64,000 nucleotides of DNA, from contig NZ_LMNF01000001.1 in the NCBI RefSeq assembly GCF_001422485.1, positions 1,603,498 through 1,667,497 on the forward strand, written 5' to 3'. Shown here piece by piece: positions 48,456 through 56,940 of the stretch (within the stretch, counting starts at the first letter, position 1; every line of letters begins with the position of its first letter). The notes beneath the pieces are model-generated. The model was not told the origin of the DNA and ran no database searches. It saw only the letters and a program-made list of their open reading frames with translations. This DNA comes from Agreia sp. Leaf283 (lineage in GTDB: Bacteria > Actinomycetota > Actinomycetes > Actinomycetales > Microbacteriaceae). The position numbers and the translations under genes are program-made.

Positions 48456-48565
48456 CGTTCCCTGAGCTTGTTGAAGGGGGCCGGCCCTTCGACAAGCTCA
48501 GGGAACGGAGTTGCCCTTCGACCGGCTCAGGAAACAAGGGCGCCCTTCGACGGGCTCAGGGAACG
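48456..48565. repeat. Repeat A array, four copies at a 29-bp period
   Basis: Copies start at 48456 (inverted), 48485, 48514 and 48543. The steps are exactly 29 bp each, that is 23-bp units with 6-bp spacers. The consensus of the forward copies begins CCCTTCGACAGGCTCAGGGA, with small variation in the middle. No cas genes or longer spacers are present, so this is not a CRISPR. Confidence 0.85.
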
Positions 48566-48581
48566 CCGGCCGTCGGCCGCG

Positions 48582-48663
48582 CTGGTTGAGTAGCGAGGAA
48601 CGAGCGTATCGAAACCACGGCGGGGTGGCCTCGATACGGCCTCAAGCGGCCTAGTCGACCACC
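48582..48663. repeat. Repeat B copy and its inverted variant
   Basis: 48582-48618 holds GTAGCGAGGAACGAGCGTAT-type repeat B. 48625-48663 holds the reversed, shortened variant with GGCC-type inner arms that also occurs at 39104. Together they form a loose inverted pair. 48664-48771 has nothing recognisable. Confidence 0.7.
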
Positions 48664-48771
48664 GCAAGGCTCACTACGTGACCGGCGCAAGCGGCCGAGC
48701 GCGCGTTCAGCGGGCGAACGCTCCTTCGGTGTGCGCGCGGTCGCCCGCAGGCGGCGCGTTCGATCTGCTCG

Positions 48772-48868
48772 CCCTTCGACAGGCTCAGGGAACGGACTCG
48801 CCCTTCGACAGGCTCAGGGAACGGGGGCGCCCTTCGACAGGCTCAGGGAACGACAGGCTCAGGGAGCG
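48772..48868 (+). repeat. Repeat A array, three copies at a 29-bp period plus a partial
   Basis: Copies at 48772, 48801 and 48830 are identical over 23 bp and spaced exactly 29 bp. A truncated copy follows at 48851-48868. The array ends eight bases before the stop codon of the ferritin-like gene, at its 3' side. Confidence 0.88.
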
Positions 48869-48875
48869 GGCGCGG

Positions 48876-49664
48876 CTAGACGCCGAGCGCGTTGAGGGAG
48901 TCGTCGACGATCGTGAGGCCCTCCAGGCCCGGGAGTCCGCTGATGGCGGTGTCGATCTTGCGGGCAGCCTTGCGCCCCTCTTCGCCACCCATGAGGTGGC
49001 CCATCACGTGCTTGACCTCGTTCTTCTCCATGATGCTGGAGCCGACCGGTGCCCAGAAGTTGCTGAGGGCGAAGCGCGCGAACTTCTGCGCCTTCGTGCT
49101 CTTCGCCAGACGCTCGCGGGCCTGCGAGGTGTAGAACGCCACGTGGCGCGCCTCCTGCTTGGCGATGCGCTTGAGCAGCTCGGCGAGCACAGGGTCTTCT
49201 TCGAGTGCGGCCATACGGTTGTAGGCGGTGATCGCCGACCACTCGTTGGCTGCACCCCAGGCCATGTGCACGGCCACGAAGTCGGCGCCCACGACCTTGC
49301 CGATCACGGACTGCTTGATGGGGTCGAGCTTGTCGCGCCAGCCGAGCTTGAGGCGCTTGGCCTTGAGCTCGTCGAAGTCCACGTGGATTCCGTGGATGCC
49401 GAGAACGGTGGCGAGGGCTTCGCCGTGCCAGAACTCCTCGCGGTTCCACATGGTCATGAACGCGCCCATCTCGGCCTCTTTGTGGGAGGGCGTGGTGAGC
49501 AGGTCGCGGGTGTAGCAGACCGTGTGATATTCCACATCGGCCATATAACGCAGGGTGCGCAGGGAGCCCTCGGGCAGAGGGTGTTCGCGGAATCGCTCGA
49601 GGTCGAGGTCGTCCCAGTTCACGCTCACCGAGGTGGCGGTGTATTTGTCTACGTCGAATGCCAT
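48876..49664 (-). CDS. Ferritin-like diiron protein (intact site)
   Basis: The 262-residue all-helical protein has a complete ferritin-like ligand set in order: Glu45 (ADVEYH), Glu77-x-x-His80 (REEFWH), Glu141 (AANEWS) and Glu171-x-x-His174 (KQEARH). This is the layout of acyl-ACP desaturases and related diiron oxygenases or oxidases. It is homologous to the 51979 gene product. ATG 49664 is used; TAAACT 11 bases upstream may give it a separate near-leaderless transcript. It is likely the oxygen-activating enzyme of the adjoining lipid cluster. The substrate is inferred only. Confidence 0.8.
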   Translation of the reverse strand: MAFDVDKYTATSVSVNWDDLDLERFREHPLPEGSLRTLRYMADVEYHTVCYTRDLLTTPSHKEAEMGAFMTMWNREEFWHGEALATVLGIHGIHVDFDELKAKRLKLGWRDKLDPIKQSVIGKVVGADFVAVHMAWGAANEWSAITAYNRMAALEEDPVLAELLKRIAKQEARHVAFYTSQARERLAKSTKAQKFARFALSNFWAPVGSSIMEKNEVKHVMGHLMGGEEGRKAARKIDTAISGLPGLEGLTIVDDSLNALGV

Positions 49665-49671
49665 GGTGTGA

Positions 49672-49687
49672 GGAGAGTTTACTCTCC
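49672..49687. promoter_or_regulatory. Short palindrome over a gene junction
   Basis: GGAGAGT and ACTCTCC are perfect 7-bp arms around TT. The element covers the last codons and stop of the reductase gene and the TAAACT box before the ferritin-like gene, so it could be an operator or a weak hairpin between the two cistrons. Confidence 0.45.
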
Positions 49688-51982
49688 GGTTCCCTTCGCG
49701 AATTGCGGTAGAGCGGACGCGCCGCGGGCGCCGCGTTTCCAGTTGTGGATGCTCCATCTTCTTCGGAGCGCCTCACGCGAGAGATTGGTGTCGGGGTTGA
49801 TCGCGGCGGGATTTCCGAGCAGTTGCAGCCAGACCAGGTCGGCGTGGCTGTCGCCGTAGCCGTACGACTTCGACAGGTCCATGCCGTGCGTCTCGGCGTA
49901 GCGGCGCAGCCAGGCCGCGCGCGCCTCGTCGACCAGCGGCGGCTGGGCCAGGTAGCCGGTCAGGATTCCGTCGCGCTCGTGCATCGATCCGGCGATGACG
50001 TCGTCGAAGAGCGGGGCGAGCGGCGAGGCCAGGATGCCGATGGATCCCGTGACGAGCACGGTGCGGTGGCCGGCGGCGCGGTGCTCCTCGATGCGCGCGA
50101 TGGCCGACGGCATCGTGTGCCGCAGCAGCGTCTCGCGGTACCCGCCGGACACGACCTTCTCGAGCCGCTTCGCGGGCATGCCGCTGTAACGGCGCAGGAA
50201 CGCGCGGATGAACTCTCCGCGGTCGCGGTGCTCGGCCTTGAGATAGCCCGGCAGGGAGGTGAGCAGGCTCGCCACCTCGCTGGGCCAGGCCGCCTTGCGG
50301 AACCCGGCCGAGCGCACCCACAGGTACTGCTCGACGATGTTGGAGTCGACGACGGTGCCCTCGAAGTCGAAGACGGCGAGCACGTCGCTGCGCTCGGGGA
50401 GCGCCTTGGCCACGCGCTCCGACGCGGCGGGCCGCAGTGAGAACGCGCGGGTGAGAGCGGTGATCGACGGGAAGTGCACCCTCTGCAGGTAGTCCTCCCA
50501 GTCGATGGCGGTCACGTCGAATCCGATGTCGTCGCGCAGCTCGGCGGGCAGGGAGTTGTGCAGCGCCCGGGTGTTGCGGTCGTCGAAGATGATCTCGGTC
50601 TGCACGTAGGCGCGGTAGAGCTCGACGAAGGTGCGCAGATTCTCGAGGTCGTCTTTGCGCTTGAGGGCCTTCTTCACATGCACGCGGGTGCGCTCGGTCG
50701 AGGGGAGGCGCTCGAGCGCCCTCTCGAGGCGGGCGTTCCAGATCTCCTGGTTGTGCAGCACCCGGTCGACCTTGCGGGTTCCGGGGAAGGTCCAGTACGG
50801 AACCTCGATGTGCCCGTCGCTCTCGTGCGGCAGCGGATTGGCCGTGAAGAACTCGTTCATGTTCGTGAACATGCGGTGGATCGGCAGCGGATTCCGGGCG
50901 CCGGAACTCACGTGGTAGTACGCGGAGTCGACCTCGGACTCGGGCGTCGGCGGGGTGGCCGCGACGGCGAGGATGACGTTCACCACGTAGTCGACGGGAA
51001 TCACGTCGAGAACGGTGTCGGGCAGGGCGGGGAACTGCGTGAGGTTGCCGCGTGCATAGGCGAGCACCAGCGGGTCGGCCACCTTGAAGCCGTCGATCCA
51101 ACCGGGGTAGGGGTGCCGCAGTGCGCTCTCGATGATCGCCGGGCGCACGACCGACAGCCGGTGGCCGGTCTCGCGCCACAGCTCTTCGGCGGCGCGCTCT
51201 GCGAACGACTTCGTGAGCGTGTACACGTCTGTCCAGCCGAGGCTCTGCGCCCGGCTGCGGCCGTAGTCGACGAGGCGCTCGCGCACCCACTCGACGCGGC
51301 CGGTCTCTGCGGCCGTGGCGACCGCCTGCGGGCCTTCCTTGCCGTGCACGGCGCGCGCATCCGACATGAAGGTGCGCAGTGTCTCGGGTTGCCGCGATGC
51401 CATCTCGACCCGCACCCGGGCATCCCTGGCCGCGGTGAGCTCTGCGCGCCAGTCGACCTCGTGCTTGAGGCGCCCCTCGGGAACGATGCCCTTGCGCAGG
51501 CCGCCGACGTAGGCCGTCGAGACGTGCACCACGTGGGCGTCGCTGCCCGATTCGGCCAAGGCCGTGTACAGGGCGATCGCCCCGCCGAGGTTGGTCTCGA
51601 ACGCCTGGTCGATGGGCGGGTCGAACGACACGGTGGATGCGCTGTGGATCACGACGTCGAGATCGTCGGGCAGAGCGGGCACGGTCGCGAGGTCGCCCTC
51701 GATCACCCGCAGTCGCTCGCGCACGGCGCGCTCGACCTCGGCCTCGCCGACGCGCTCGCGCCACGGCCCGAACACCGGCTTGCGCAGCAGCGTGCGCAGG
51801 CGGTCTTCGGCCGTCGTGCTGCCCTTGGTGCGGATGAGCAGCGAGATCGTGGTGTCGGGATGCGACGAGAGCAGCCTCTCGACGATGGCCTGGCCCACGA
51901 AGCCCGTGCCTCCGGTGATGAAGACGTGCGCGTTGCCGAGGTCGCCGGTCACGACCGTGTCGGTCACGTTCGGGCCGCTCAC
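49679..51982 (-). CDS. Fatty acyl reductase fused to a HAD-like phosphatase domain
   Basis: The 767-residue protein has an N-terminal extended-SDR acyl reductase: nucleotide loop TGGTGFVG at 23-30, catalytic YTLTK at Tyr254-Lys258, and a FAR_C-like segment at about 390-500. This is the fold that reduces acyl-CoA or acyl-ACP to fatty alcohol. From about 530 a HAD-IB domain follows: motif I is DFEGT (Asp539, Glu541, Thr543), then LVTGS, then YGDSHADLVWL. The second Asp of DxD is Glu, so phosphatase activity is doubtful. GTG 51982 overlaps the upstream gene's stop (GTGA). Confidence 0.85.
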   Translation of the reverse strand: MSGPNVTDTVVTGDLGNAHVFITGGTGFVGQAIVERLLSSHPDTTISLLIRTKGSTTAEDRLRTLLRKPVFGPWRERVGEAEVERAVRERLRVIEGDLATVPALPDDLDVVIHSASTVSFDPPIDQAFETNLGGAIALYTALAESGSDAHVVHVSTAYVGGLRKGIVPEGRLKHEVDWRAELTAARDARVRVEMASRQPETLRTFMSDARAVHGKEGPQAVATAAETGRVEWVRERLVDYGRSRAQSLGWTDVYTLTKSFAERAAEELWRETGHRLSVVRPAIIESALRHPYPGWIDGFKVADPLVLAYARGNLTQFPALPDTVLDVIPVDYVVNVILAVAATPPTPESEVDSAYYHVSSGARNPLPIHRMFTNMNEFFTANPLPHESDGHIEVPYWTFPGTRKVDRVLHNQEIWNARLERALERLPSTERTRVHVKKALKRKDDLENLRTFVELYRAYVQTEIIFDDRNTRALHNSLPAELRDDIGFDVTAIDWEDYLQRVHFPSITALTRAFSLRPAASERVAKALPERSDVLAVFDFEGTVVDSNIVEQYLWVRSAGFRKAAWPSEVASLLTSLPGYLKAEHRDRGEFIRAFLRRYSGMPAKRLEKVVSGGYRETLLRHTMPSAIARIEEHRAAGHRTVLVTGSIGILASPLAPLFDDVIAGSMHERDGILTGYLAQPPLVDEARAAWLRRYAETHGMDLSKSYGYGDSHADLVWLQLLGNPAAINPDTNLSREALRRRWSIHNWKRGARGASALPQFAKGTGE

Positions 51983-52797
51983 GAGCGCAGCTTTCGGGCG
52001 ACGGCGTCGCCGATCTGCGGGGTCAGGCCGGGAAGTTCTGCCACTCTGTTTCCGATCGTGGTTGCGCGCTGGAGTCCGTCGGCACCGCCGAAGACCGTCT
52101 GTTCGAAGAAGGTGCGGTCTGCATCGGAGCGGTCGACGGCTCCGATGGGCCAGGCCGCGTGGGCGAGGTGATTCGCCGCCTGCCTGACCGTCTTGGACGA
52201 GTCGGCCAGCCTGCGTCGCGCCTCTTCGGCGAAGAACGATTCGTGCCGGCTCTTGATGCCGCGGATGGTGTCGATCGTCGTGCTGAGCGTCGGGTGCCCG
52301 GCGAGGGCATCCAATCGGGCGTATGCCGTGCCCATGACCCATTCGTCGACGAGGCCCGTGGTCATGTGCACGCCGGTGAGCGGAACACCCTGCCCCATGG
52401 CGAGGATGGCGCGACGGATGGGTCCGCGGCGTTCGGCCGATTCCGACCGGTCGGAGCGCGGGGCGCCCTCATCGCCGACCTGGGCGCCGGTGCTGCCGTT
52501 GGCCACGAGGATCTGGTCGATGGCGTCGGCGATCCAGAACTTCTCGAAGGCCCAGGTGACGAGGAACGCGGTGACGCGCGCGTCTTTGTGGGTGGCGGTC
52601 ACGAGCAGGTTGCGCAGCTGCTCCATCGTGGCGCTCTCGAGGCGGCCGAGGTAGCGCAGCAGATGCACGGCATCGGTCGAGAGCTGCGCGCCGTCGTAGG
52701 CCTCGAGCTGGAGCTCGGGACGAAGATTTCCGCGGGCGGTGCCGGCGAATGCCCGCACGTCGAACCGCGCACTCGAAGTTGCATCTGTGGATGTCAT
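51979..52797 (-). CDS. Ferritin-like paralogue with a degenerate metal site
   Basis: The 272-residue helical protein is homologous to the 48876 gene product. LLRYLGRLESATMEQLRNLL aligns with its LRYMADVEYH region, and GVHMTTGLVDEWVMGTAYAR with its AVHMAWGAANEW region. Of the six ligands only Glu54, Glu152 and His185 remain. ExxH in helix 2 has become Lys86-x-x-Ile89, and the helix 4 Glu has become Lys182. It probably cannot hold two irons and may be a structural partner of the intact paralogue. It is first in the minus-strand arm of the cluster. Confidence 0.75.
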   Translation of the reverse strand: MTSTDATSSARFDVRAFAGTARGNLRPELQLEAYDGAQLSTDAVHLLRYLGRLESATMEQLRNLLVTATHKDARVTAFLVTWAFEKFWIADAIDQILVANGSTGAQVGDEGAPRSDRSESAERRGPIRRAILAMGQGVPLTGVHMTTGLVDEWVMGTAYARLDALAGHPTLSTTIDTIRGIKSRHESFFAEEARRRLADSSKTVRQAANHLAHAAWPIGAVDRSDADRTFFEQTVFGGADGLQRATTIGNRVAELPGLTPQIGDAVARKLRS

Positions 52798-52852
52798 GAA
52801 AGCCCTGCCGACTGGTCGAAAACCCGCGTGCGTAAACGACGCCGTGAAGAGC

Positions 52853-52862
52853 AGACTAACCT
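52853..52862. promoter_or_regulatory. Symmetrical divergent promoter (shared TA)
   Basis: AGACTAACCT contains TAACCT on the + strand (52857-52862, six bases before ATG 52869) and TAGTCT on the - strand (52858 to 52853). The two -10 boxes share the TA at 52857-52858. It serves both arms of the lipid cluster. CTAACCTAA at 52856-52864 also equals one half of the DtxR/IdeR iron box, but the other half is poor. Confidence 0.6.
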
Positions 52863-52868
52863 AACCCC

Positions 52869-53645
52869 ATGGCTGTAGCTCTCGTTACGGGAGGAACGTC
52901 TGGCATCGGTGCTGCGTTCTCCCGATCCCTCGCCGCGCAGGGATATGACCTTGTTCTCGTCGCTCGGAGCGTTCCGCGACTGGAGGAGATGGCCGAAGAG
53001 ATCCGCGCCCTCGGCCGCTCGGTCGAGATCCTCCCCGCCGATCTCGCGGATCGGGCCGACGTGGCGCGGGTCGCCGAACGGCTCGAAGACGCCTCCCGTC
53101 CGATCGACATGCTGGTGAACAACGCCGGGTTCGGCGTGCACACGTCGCTCATCGACTCCGACGTCTCGGCCCACGACAAGGCCTTCGAGGTCATGTGCCG
53201 CGCCGTGCTGGTGCTGTCGGGTGCCGCGGCACGCGGGATGCTGCCCCGCGGCTCGGGAAAGATCGTCAACGTCTCGAGCACGGCCGGTTTCGTGACCATG
53301 GGCGCGTACTCGGCGCTCAAGGCCTGGGTCACCTCGTTCACCGAGGGACTCGCCGTCGAACTGCGCGGCACGGGGATCGGCGTGACGGCGCTCTGCCCGG
53401 GCTGGGTGCACACCGAGTTTCACGAGCGCGCCGGGATCAAGGCGTCGAGCATTCCAAACTTCTTGTGGCTCGACGCCGAACAACTTGTCACGGCATGCTT
53501 GCGCGACGTCGACCGGGGCAGGGTAATCTCCATACCGACTGTTCGGTACCGAACCCTCATCTGGTTGGCTCGCCACGCACCGAGGAGTGCGATACGCGCA
53601 GTCTCCGGGTCGATCTCATCGAGTCGAAAGAAGCCGGTCACCTAG
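52869..53645 (+). CDS. SDR oxidoreductase of the lipid cluster
   Basis: The 258-residue classical SDR has the loop GGTSGIGAAFSRSLAAQGYD, then NNAGFG, Ser (NVSSTAG) and YSALK as catalytic residues, and CPGWVHTEFH. This is the DltE/Rv-type acyl-ketone reductase branch. In eukaryotic ether-lipid synthesis the acyl/alkyl-DHAP reductase is also an SDR (PexRAP), so that is the function I infer here. It is leaderless, and its stop TAG abuts the ATG of plsC. Confidence 0.85.
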   Translation: MAVALVTGGTSGIGAAFSRSLAAQGYDLVLVARSVPRLEEMAEEIRALGRSVEILPADLADRADVARVAERLEDASRPIDMLVNNAGFGVHTSLIDSDVSAHDKAFEVMCRAVLVLSGAAARGMLPRGSGKIVNVSSTAGFVTMGAYSALKAWVTSFTEGLAVELRGTGIGVTALCPGWVHTEFHERAGIKASSIPNFLWLDAEQLVTACLRDVDRGRVISIPTVRYRTLIWLARHAPRSAIRAVSGSISSSRKKPVT

Positions 53646-54395
53646 ATGGCTGCAGAAGAACCCGCCCCCTCGGGGCCCGCCAAGGTCGTTGCCGGCGTGC
53701 GCGACCGTTTCAACTCGCCCAGCGTCGCGGCCGCCCGCTTTCTGGTTCAGCGCGGGCTGCTCAAGCCCCTCATCTGGTCGCTCACCCGCGTCACCGTGAT
53801 CGGTCGCGAGAAGCTCAAGGACCTGTCGGGGGGCTTCGTCGTCGTCGCCAACCATTCCAGCCATCTGGATGCCCCGCTGATCGTCGGCTCCCTGCCCCGC
53901 CGGCTTGCGCGGTACCTGGCCACGGGTGCGGCCGCCGACTACTTCTTTGCCGTCTGGTGGCGACGCGGCCTCACGGCATTGTTCTTCAATGCGTTCCCGG
54001 TGAAGCGCATGGAGTCGAAAGCCAAGTCGATGAGCGCCCGGTCTCTGCTGTCGCGGGGCATCCCCATCCTCATCTTCCCCGAGGGAACCCGATCGAAAGA
54101 CGGCGCGGTCGGCACCTTCAAGCCCGGTGCCGCCGCGCTCGCGGCATCCTGCGACGTGCCCACCATTCCGATGGCGCTCATCGGTGCCCATGTCGCCCAC
54201 CCGCGCGGGGCCAACTGGCCACGTCGCGGACGGTACCCGGTCGGCGTCGTCTTCGGCGAACCGCTGAGGCCCGTCGCGGGCGAGACCCCCGGCCACTTCG
54301 CCGAGCGCACGAAGCAAGAGATCCTGCGCCTGCACGACCTTCATTCGGCCACTATCCTTGGCCAGTCCCCCCGATCAAGAGGAGCCCTCAAGTGA
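53646..54395 (+). CDS. PlsC-like acyltransferase
   Basis: The 249-residue glycerolipid acyltransferase has NHSSHLDAPLIVG for the HX4D catalytic motif, FPVKRMESKAKS for motif II, IFPEGTRSKDGAVGTFK for motif III and TIPMALIGAHV for motif IV. In general it acylates lysophosphatidate. In this cluster it could acylate DHAP, the step before alkyl-DHAP synthase. The ATG follows the SDR stop directly, and the TGA overlaps the GTG of the next gene. Confidence 0.9.
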   Translation: MAAEEPAPSGPAKVVAGVRDRFNSPSVAAARFLVQRGLLKPLIWSLTRVTVIGREKLKDLSGGFVVVANHSSHLDAPLIVGSLPRRLARYLATGAAADYFFAVWWRRGLTALFFNAFPVKRMESKAKSMSARSLLSRGIPILIFPEGTRSKDGAVGTFKPGAAALAASCDVPTIPMALIGAHVAHPRGANWPRRGRYPVGVVFGEPLRPVAGETPGHFAERTKQEILRLHDLHSATILGQSPRSRGALK

Positions 54396-56059
54396 GCGAT
54401 GTCAAGCACATGAAATGGTGGGGCTGGGGCGTCGACGGCGTCGCATTCCACCACGAGAACAAGCCGGGTTTCGCCCCCTTCGTCAAGAAGAACCTGGGCC
54501 TCGACCTCACCAAGACCAAGGGCGAGCCGCCGGCATTCGACGACATCGATGTCCCCTCCAGCCGTGCCCCGGAGGCCTTCGTCCTGCTCCTGACCGGCAT
54601 CGTCGGGGATGAGCACATCGAGACCGACGACATGTCGCGGGTCGTGCACACCTTCGGCAAGAGCATCCGCGACCTCATCCGCGTTCGCACGAGCGCCTTC
54701 CCTCGAGCCGTCGATGTCGTCGTGTATCCGGCCAACGAGGCCGAGGTGCGTCTGATCGTCGACGCGGTCGTCGCGGCCGACGCCGTGCTCATTCCGTTCG
54801 GCGGCGGCAGCAACATCGCCGGCAGCCTCGAGCCCCTCGCCGGCGAGGAGCGCACCGTGGTGTCGCTCGACCTCGGCCGGCTCAACCGCGTCATCGAGGT
54901 CGACGCCGACTCGAGCCTCGCGCGCATCCAGGCCGGCGCCCAGGGCCCCGACCTCGAGGCCGAGCTGAACGCCGCCGGCTGGACCCTCGGACACTTCCCC
55001 GACAGCTTCACCCACTCCACCGTCGGCGGCTGGGTGGCCACGCGCTCCTCCGGCATGCAGAGCGACAAGTTCGGAGACATCGCCGATATTGCCAAGGGTC
55101 TGCGTGTCGTGCGCCCCGGCGGCGTGCTCGTTCTGCGGCCGCTGCCCAGCACCTCGACCGGGCCCAGCGTGCGCGAGATGATCCTCGGCAGCGAGGGTCG
55201 CCTCGGTGTCATCACCGAGGTCACCGTGCAGATCCACCGCATCCCGGCCAAGCGCGAGATCCTCGCCTACCTCTACCCGACCTGGGACGCCGGACTCGCG
55301 GCCATGCGTGAGATCTCGGAGAGCGATGCCACGCCCTCGATCACCCGCGTCTCCGACGGCAACGAGACGCTGTTCTCGTTCGCCACGTCGAAGAAGAGCA
55401 AGGGCTTCTCCGGCCTCGCCACGAAGGGCCTCGGCGTCTTCCTGAAGGCCAAGGGCTGGGACACCGAGAAGATGTGCCTGTCGTTTGTCGGCAACGAGGG
55501 CGGCGAAGAGTTGGTCGCGACGAACCAGAAGATCATCGCCGGCATCGTCAAGAAGCACGGCGGAATCACCGTGGGCAAGGGCCCCGGCGTGCTCTACGAC
55601 CAGAAGAAGTTCGACACCCCGTACATCCGGGACTGGTTCCTCGACTGGGGCGGCTCCGCCGACGTGTCCGAGACCGCGGCGCCCTGGGCCAAGCTGCCCG
55701 AGCTCTACCGCAACGTGATCGCGAGCGCCAACCACGCGTTCGACGAGATCGGGGTCAAGGGCTGGATCATGGCCCACCTGTCGCACTCCTACACCTCGGG
55801 CGCCTGCCTCTACTTCACCTTCGCCTACCTCGACACGGGCGACGCGATCCCCAACTACGACGTGGTGAAGGGCGCGATTCAGCAGGCGTTCATCGACGCG
55901 GGCGGAACGCTGTCGCACCACCACGGAGTGGGCCTCGAGCACGCCCCGTGGATGGAGCAGGACATCTCGACCGAGGGCGTCAAGATCATGCGCGGACTGT
56001 TCGGCTCGGCCGACCCGGGTCGCCACTTCAACCCGGGCAAGGTTCTGCTCGACGAATGA
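54392..56059 (+). CDS. agpS: Alkyl-DHAP synthase-like FAD enzyme
   Basis: The 555 residues follow alkyldihydroxyacetonephosphate synthase end to end. MKWWGWG opens it as in human AGPS. FAD-binding IPFGGGSNIAGSLEP, GHFPDSFTHSTVGGWVATRS and LGSEGRLGVITE follow, then SYTSGACLYFTFAY with the catalytic-region Tyr, and finally TLSHHHGVGLEHAPW. AGPS replaces the acyl chain of acyl-DHAP with a fatty alcohol, making the ether bond. AAGAGGAG at 54377-54384 supports GTG 54392. Actinobacterial homologues are annotated as AgpS, but their role is little studied. Confidence 0.88.
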   Translation: MSDVKHMKWWGWGVDGVAFHHENKPGFAPFVKKNLGLDLTKTKGEPPAFDDIDVPSSRAPEAFVLLLTGIVGDEHIETDDMSRVVHTFGKSIRDLIRVRTSAFPRAVDVVVYPANEAEVRLIVDAVVAADAVLIPFGGGSNIAGSLEPLAGEERTVVSLDLGRLNRVIEVDADSSLARIQAGAQGPDLEAELNAAGWTLGHFPDSFTHSTVGGWVATRSSGMQSDKFGDIADIAKGLRVVRPGGVLVLRPLPSTSTGPSVREMILGSEGRLGVITEVTVQIHRIPAKREILAYLYPTWDAGLAAMREISESDATPSITRVSDGNETLFSFATSKKSKGFSGLATKGLGVFLKAKGWDTEKMCLSFVGNEGGEELVATNQKIIAGIVKKHGGITVGKGPGVLYDQKKFDTPYIRDWFLDWGGSADVSETAAPWAKLPELYRNVIASANHAFDEIGVKGWIMAHLSHSYTSGACLYFTFAYLDTGDAIPNYDVVKGAIQQAFIDAGGTLSHHHGVGLEHAPWMEQDISTEGVKIMRGLFGSADPGRHFNPGKVLLDE

Positions 56060-56940
56060 GCCGCGCCCGTCTCGGCGGGCCCGTCGGCGCGGCGGGCCTC
56101 GTCGTCGCCGGGCTGGCGTGCCAGGAGGTCGGGGCGGCCTTCGCCGTGCTGCTCTTCCCGAGCGTCGGTGCGCTCGGCATGGTGGCGCTGCGCCTCACCT
56201 TCTCTGCCCTGATCCTGCTCGCCATCGCGCGCCCCTCTGTTCGCGGCCGCAGCCGCGGCGACTGGATGACGGTGGTGCTGTTCGGCGTGGCCCTCGCGGT
56301 GATGAACGGGTTGTTCTACGAGGCGCTCGCGCGCATCCCGCTGGGCGCCGCGGTGACCATCGAGGTGCTCGGGCCGCTGATCCTGTCGGTGGCGACGAGC
56401 AGGCGCGCCTCCAGCTGGCTCTGGGCCGTGCTGGCGTTCATCGGCGTCTTCCTGCTGGGTCAGGGCAGCTTCGGGGAGCTCGATCCCGTGGGCGTGCTGT
56501 TCGCCGCCGGCGCCGGAGCGAGCTGGGCCGGGTACATCCTGCTGTCGTCGCGCACGGGGAGCCGCTTCGCCCGACTCGACGGGCTCGCGCTCGCCATGGC
56601 GATCGGCGCCGTTCTCACGCTGCCGCTGGGGCTCGCCGCAGCCGGCCCCGCGATCGTGCGCCCCGACATCCTGCTTCTGGGAGCGGCCGTCGCCGTGCTC
56701 TCGTCGACGATCCCGTACGCCCTCGAACTGTTCGCGCTGCGTCGCATCCCCTCGTCGACCTTCGCCATTCTCATGAGCCTCGCGCCCGCGATCGCCGCCC
56801 TGGCCGGAGTCGTTCTGCTGGCGCAGCACATCTCGATCGTGGGCGTGATCGCGATCGCCCTCGTCGTGACGGCGAGCATCGGGGCGGTGCGCAGCGCGCG
56901 ACCGGGAACTACTCCCGTCGCTCGTGCCGACGTGGTCTGA
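56056..56940 (+). CDS. EamA-family transporter (RhtA/YdcZ-like)
   Basis: The 294-residue protein has about ten membrane helices in two EamA repeats. The first includes GMVALRLTFSALILLAIAR and the second LLGAAVAVLSSTIPYALELF with the conserved ALRRIPSSTFAILMSLAPA. RhtA-like members export amino acids such as threonine and homoserine. The ATG overlaps the agpS-like stop (ATGA), so it is co-translated with the lipid genes, though a functional link is unproven. Its 3' end overlaps the convergent DUF4166 gene by 32 bases. Confidence 0.88.
   Translation: MSRARLGGPVGAAGLVVAGLACQEVGAAFAVLLFPSVGALGMVALRLTFSALILLAIARPSVRGRSRGDWMTVVLFGVALAVMNGLFYEALARIPLGAAVTIEVLGPLILSVATSRRASSWLWAVLAFIGVFLLGQGSFGELDPVGVLFAAGAGASWAGYILLSSRTGSRFARLDGLALAMAIGAVLTLPLGLAAAGPAIVRPDILLLGAAVAVLSSTIPYALELFALRRIPSSTFAILMSLAPAIAALAGVVLLAQHISIVGVIAIALVVTASIGAVRSARPGTTPVARADVV

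Follow-up and report, generated by a model that had tools for sequence, protein, structure and literature searches.

What do six tightly packed genes make in Agreia sp. Leaf283, an aerobic bacterium of soil and leaves? An earlier note, written from the sequence of the window (the whole 64,000-nucleotide stretch of DNA that was analysed, whose numbering we use throughout), proposed that they make alkyl-ether glycerolipids in an aerobic actinobacterium, with a diiron protein perhaps converting the product to a vinyl ether. The first part of this proposal is well supported by homology, by the catalytic residues of the alkyl-DHAP synthase homologue (AGPS), by conserved clustering, by the co-occurrence of AGPS with the diiron protein FerA, and by the published lipids of genera that carry the cluster. 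We conclude that the cluster very probably provides for the aerobic de novo synthesis of ether lipids. The full statement, in which the diiron proteins FerA and FerB also carry out the vinyl-ether step, we put at roughly 0.55.

Arrangement of the cluster and its four core enzymes

The source genome is actinobacterial and measures 3.98 Mb; its AGPS shares 96-98% identity with the AGPS proteins of Agreia species. Positions 48876-56059 contain two divergent gene runs: the minus strand carries FerB, FAR-HAD, and FerA, and the plus strand carries SDR, PlsC, and AGPS. All six genes lie where the earlier note had placed them, and the overlapping starts and stops that it described are confirmed by the coordinates. 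On the minus strand, FerB (51979..52797) and the fatty acyl reductase FAR-HAD (49679..51982) overlap by 4 nt (the GTG start codon of FAR-HAD and the stop codon of FerB share a GTGA), and 14 nt separate FAR-HAD from FerA (48876..49664). On the plus strand, the stop codon of the SDR (52869..53645) directly abuts the start of the PlsC-family acyltransferase (53646..54395), which in turn overlaps AGPS (54392..56059) by 4 nt. The next gene on the plus strand encodes an RhtA-like EamA transporter (56056..56940) and overlaps the stop codon of AGPS. This translational coupling is seen in Agreia only, and the other genera have no conserved EamA gene, so we rejected the transporter as a core member of the cluster.

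The two runs do share a 71-bp intergenic region (52798..52868), from which a single divergent promoter had been inferred, but we looked there for a sigma-70 consensus and found none. (The sequence TAACCT, located 6 nt upstream of the start codon of the SDR, is possibly a leaderless -10 element.) A 23-bp interspersed repeat, CCCTTCGACAGGCTCAGGGAACG, is present in 13 copies, at 48456-48852 of the window and elsewhere, with small groups adjoining the end of the cluster; none would be expected by chance.

AGPS matches alkyl-DHAP synthases (ADPS) from end to end. The E-values are 1.6e-115 for the enzyme from Dictyostelium and 7.4e-82 for the enzyme from guinea pig, and the next match is a glycolate oxidase at 5e-21; ADPS enzymes with solved structures lead other FAD oxidases by about 90 orders of magnitude. 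R319, R413, Y474, and H509-511 of AGPS are invariant among its homologues and align with the catalytic residues of guinea-pig ADPS, which we take to be R419, R515, Y578, and H615-617. Thus AGPS, for which all of the catalytic residues were checked, is a true homologue of alkyl-DHAP synthase and is predicted to have that activity. A second, divergent class of AGPS (33-37% identity) is found in L025, L026, L027, and other genomes, with no genes from the cluster nearby.

For FAR-HAD, the open reading frame had been called correctly, but a C-terminal HAD-IB domain (PF12710, 6.8e-32) had been missed. The reductase portion contains an NAD_binding_4 domain (PF07993, 5e-47) and a partial Sterile domain, and it is similar to a fatty acyl-CoA reductase of solved structure (PDB 7eoz, 4.8e-46). 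Motif I of the HAD domain is DxEGT, here and in most homologues, which makes phosphatase activity doubtful. One match to FAR-HAD (G047:C1:1188405-1190654, which overlaps L039) spans an internal TGA, possibly because of a frameshift, a pseudogene, or an overrun at the edge of the match.

The SDR (PF00106, 3.9e-46) has intact TGGTSGIG, NNAG, and YSALK motifs, and the acyltransferase (PF01553, 1.5e-22) has intact HX4D and FPEGTRS motifs. We propose that they act as an alkyl/acyl-DHAP reductase (the role of PexRAP) and as a DHAP acyltransferase (the role of GNPAT), respectively; these are family-level matches, and the substrates are not readable from sequence. Subtercola clusters L130, L131, L134, L141, L142, L147, and L152 have an extra PlsC-like gene between FerA and FAR-HAD, which would fit with separate sn-1 and sn-2 acyltransferases.

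In the pathway that we infer, from the reactions and their order to the FerA/FerB complex and its substrate, FAR-HAD would convert iso- or anteiso-acyl-CoA (or acyl-ACP) to a fatty alcohol, and the PlsC-like enzyme would acylate DHAP. AGPS would then form alkyl-DHAP by exchanging the acyl group for the fatty alcohol, and the SDR would reduce alkyl-DHAP to 1-alkyl-glycerol-3-phosphate, which would enter ordinary phospholipid or glycolipid synthesis. Finally, FerA, paired with a non-catalytic FerB, would use O2 as a soluble diiron desaturase of the ether product and most likely introduce a 1'-2' double bond, which would yield a plasmalogen.

Conservation of the cluster and lipids of its carriers

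The earlier note had staked its proposal on the six genes being conserved together in relatives, and across 80 loci and 38 genera we found that they are. Among the 80 named AGPS loci (which were selected by AGPS, so that AGPS is present by construction), the SDR and PlsC are found in all 80, FAR-HAD in 71, and FerA in 66. When we clustered the neighboring genes, the most widespread family beyond the six was a TetR-like regulator, in just 8 of 38 genera; no family outside the six is a widespread neighbor of AGPS in the dozens of actinobacterial genera compared. The clustering far exceeds what chance would give, as the same genes recur jointly in most of the AGPS loci from other genera. The full set is found in Agreia, Subtercola, Frigoribacterium, Glaciihabitans, Rhodoglobus, Salinibacterium, Herbiconiux, Streptomyces, and Ruania, among others. 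Clusters with AGPS, FAR, PlsC, and SDR and without FerA are found in Naasia, in Pseudactinotalea, and in genomes of family f12.

Of 396 genomes of the order, 56 have FerA and 75 have the close class of AGPS (E < 1e-250, tallied manually from the match list), with both in 48. In other words, 48 of the 56 genomes with FerA also have this class of AGPS; at the level of genera, it is 13 of 16 (Fisher p = 5e-10, ignoring shared ancestry). In a search of plasmids, FerA and this class of AGPS were found together only on a 2.35-Mb Streptomyces megaplasmid (L202, NZ_CP109481.1, 1069080-1094735), which suggests that the cluster can move horizontally.

Acid methanolysis converts plasmalogens to dimethyl acetals (DMA) of fatty aldehydes. 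DMA from aerobic Actinobacteria have been on record since 2000 (PMC5945732, PMC7472656), and we found no genetic explanation for them in the literature that we searched. The cluster supplies a candidate explanation. Subtercola species contain i-16:0, a-15:0, and a-17:0 DMA, which sum to about 20-29% of the profile, and Agreia is reported to contain only up to 4% DMA (PMC5945732). The complete cluster is present in S. vilae DB165 (L130), a strain with measured DMA, and in S. lobariae (L152). Frigoribacterium faeni, for which the anteiso-15:0 aldehyde or DMA was reported (PMC12823222), carries the cluster as well (L112). F. endophyticum was described without DMA (PMC12823222), although the cluster is present in another strain of that name; this and the low DMA of Agreia weigh against our reading of the cluster.

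Kineococcus rubinsiae contains 2.9% anteiso-15:0 DMA, in a peak that the MIDI system had labelled as C14:0 2-OH and that GC-MS identified as a-15:0 DMA (PMC7472656). Frondihabitans is listed among the genera without DMA (PMC5945732), 14:0 2-OH has been reported from it, and one strain has the cluster (L119). Given the Kineococcus result, the 14:0 2-OH of Frondihabitans may be misread a-15:0 DMA, and some taxonomic accounts of other cluster-carrying genera may contain the same misreading as "14:0 2-OH". K. rubinsiae also has a peak labelled "C20:4" (16%) that is not a fatty acid methyl ester (PMC7472656); we speculate that it could be an alkylglycerol.

The FerA/FerB pair and the vinyl-ether bond

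Both of the "ferritin-like" proteins of the earlier note are present, and they turn out to be paralogues that share about 30% identity, with the diiron ligands complete in FerA and three of them changed in FerB. The ligands of FerA are E45, E77xxH80, E141, and E171xxH174. All of these are invariant in 105 of 105 homologues except for H174, which is conserved in 104 (the other has H174Q). In FerB, E77 is replaced by K, H80 by I, and E171 by K, and the loss extends across its homologues (90 of 90 for H80 and E171 and 86 of 90 for E77). The predicted model of FerB nevertheless keeps the fold of FerA. The simplest reading is that FerA is the catalytic subunit, and FerB a non-catalytic partner, of a putative complex.

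FerA does not pass the cut-off of any Pfam family; for PF03405 it scores 21.7 bits, just under the gathering score of 22.7. The predicted model (pLDDT 83) is most similar to stearoyl-ACP desaturases (VIA Z = 18, 3.5 Å over 235 residues), followed by DesA2 (Z = 17) and by aldehyde-deformylating or R2-like oxidases (Z = 15). The margin is modest, as helical bundles can reach VIA Z of about 13 without real kinship. FerA has both the fold and the diiron ligand pattern of the soluble acyl-ACP desaturases.

We also searched for enzymes that are already known to form vinyl ethers. CarF/PEDS1 (PF10520) had no match in the genome of Agreia sp. Leaf283 or in 10 named cluster carriers; the model matches in 9 of 246 Actinobacteriota. 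DUF2229 (PF09989), which we take to be the domain borne by PlsA/R, had no match in the source genome, in the named genomes of Subtercola, Agreia, Frigoribacterium, Glaciihabitans, and Herbiconiux, or in other sampled Microbacteriaceae, while its model matches in 4 of 60 relatives and in 4 control genomes. We therefore rejected both CarF and PlsA/R as hidden vinyl-ether enzymes in the genomes searched. Because of its O2-dependent diiron site, its desaturase-like fold, its linkage to the other genes, and the lack of CarF or DUF2229 matches in those genomes, FerA/FerB is the best candidate in the cluster for this step. That it introduces the vinyl-ether double bond is plausible, at slightly less than even odds. 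We hold equally tentatively that the pair evolved independently as a third type of vinyl-ether (plasmanyl) desaturase, namely a soluble heteromeric diiron enzyme with no relation to CarF/PEDS1 or to PlsA/R.

Two observations speak against this role. Six genomes (five from genus g52 and one from g26) encode FerA and FerB, with intact ligands, and lack both this class of AGPS and FAR-HAD, so we rejected FerA as a strict marker of the AGPS pathway. The neighbors of these standalone pairs vary and give no functional lead. The standalone pairs make it possible that FerA/FerB has some use outside of the ether-lipid pathway. Also, the sampled Kineococcus genomes (one assigned by a 100% plasmid match to K. 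radiotolerans and the others by the shared genus label) encode AGPS, but we found no close FerA and no match to CarF in them. We considered a divergent FerA, but 6 of 11 of these genomes gave only partial matches (1e-5 to 1e-7), which are probably to other diiron proteins. Since K. rubinsiae nevertheless contains 2.9% DMA, either another route to DMA exists or some DMA arises from free aldehyde.

Both observations fit with an alternative in which the ether-lipid pathway is right and FerA/FerB is a general desaturase or hydroxylase of acyl or alkyl chains (for instance on acyl-ACP) that feeds several lipids, with DMA arising through a different enzyme or from aldehyde that FAR produces. The fold of FerA is nearest to that of acyl-ACP desaturases, and enzymes with the soluble desaturase fold usually act on acyl-ACP and not on membrane lipids. 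However, FerA clusters and co-occurs strongly with AGPS, and the standalone FerA genes nest within the clade of clustered ones, which fits with loss of the other genes or with co-option of a cluster-derived gene. We consider this alternative to be rather unlikely.

It is less probable still that the cluster makes just saturated alkyl ethers, with FerA/FerB modifying a lipid elsewhere or serving some other purpose and with the DMA unrelated to the cluster. The clusters of Naasia, Pseudactinotalea, and family f12 do imply that the core works without FerA, but the cluster is present, and the known vinyl-ether genes were not found, in the genera for which DMA was measured. Finally, the AGPS-like flavoprotein could be a D-2-hydroxyacid dehydrogenase, with the cluster leading to wax esters or hydrocarbons from the products of FAR. 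AGPS does share its domains (PF01565 and PF02913) with glycolate and lactate oxidases, and FerA has its lesser resemblance to aldehyde-deformylating and R2-like oxidases. Against this, the scores and catalytic residues of AGPS are of the ADPS type, and the conserved core includes no wax synthase or hydrocarbon gene, so we view it as very improbable. If instead the preferred reading is true, and FerA/FerB forms the vinyl ether of a plasmalogen, then aerobic Actinobacteria have a complete six-gene plasmalogen pathway, and FerA/FerB is a new class of enzyme for a bond that is important in animal membranes.

Comparison with known systems

Ether-lipid synthesis of the AGPS type is already known from animals and myxobacteria, and the myxobacteria have been called a striking exception among aerobic bacteria for their plasmalogens (PMC9131029). 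A metagenome survey lists AGPS homologues from Actinobacteria (PMC11868695). In the literature that we searched, which left out most subscription journals, we found no earlier description of the six-gene actinobacterial form with FerA/FerB and nothing that relevantly joins plasmalogens with Microbacteriaceae.

The same four core reactions as in the peroxisomal pathway (FAR1, GNPAT, AGPS, PexRAP, and PEDS1) can be assigned in Agreia: the FAR, acyltransferase, AGPS, and SDR families of the aerobic plasmalogen pathway are all present and linked, and the catalytic residues of AGPS are kept. In contrast to that pathway, Agreia has no match to PEDS1/CarF, its acyltransferase and SDR are generic members of their families, and its cluster adds the FerA/FerB pair and the HAD domain. 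In the MXAN_1676-1674 operon of Myxococcus xanthus, which is also an aerobe with plasmalogens, a bacterial AGPS adjoins a FAR, an acyltransferase, and an NAD-dependent reductase, and elbB of the elb cluster encodes another HAD protein (PMC9131029). However, M. xanthus uses CarF for the vinyl ether, relies mostly on ElbD, has other gene fusions, and is not described as having a FerA/FerB pair (PMC9131029). Plasmalogens are also the product of the anaerobic PlsA/PlsR pathway of other bacteria, orthologues of which occur elsewhere among the Actinobacteria (PMC9702350), but we found no match to its DUF2229-type domain in Agreia, Subtercola, Frigoribacterium, or other sampled Microbacteriaceae. With the soluble acyl-ACP desaturases (castor stearoyl-ACP desaturase and mycobacterial DesA1/DesA2), FerA shares the fold and the E, ExxH, E, ExxH pattern. 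It differs from them in its low identity (14-19%), in scoring slightly under the Pfam cut-off, in being paired with a degenerate paralogue, and in being clustered with ether-lipid genes.
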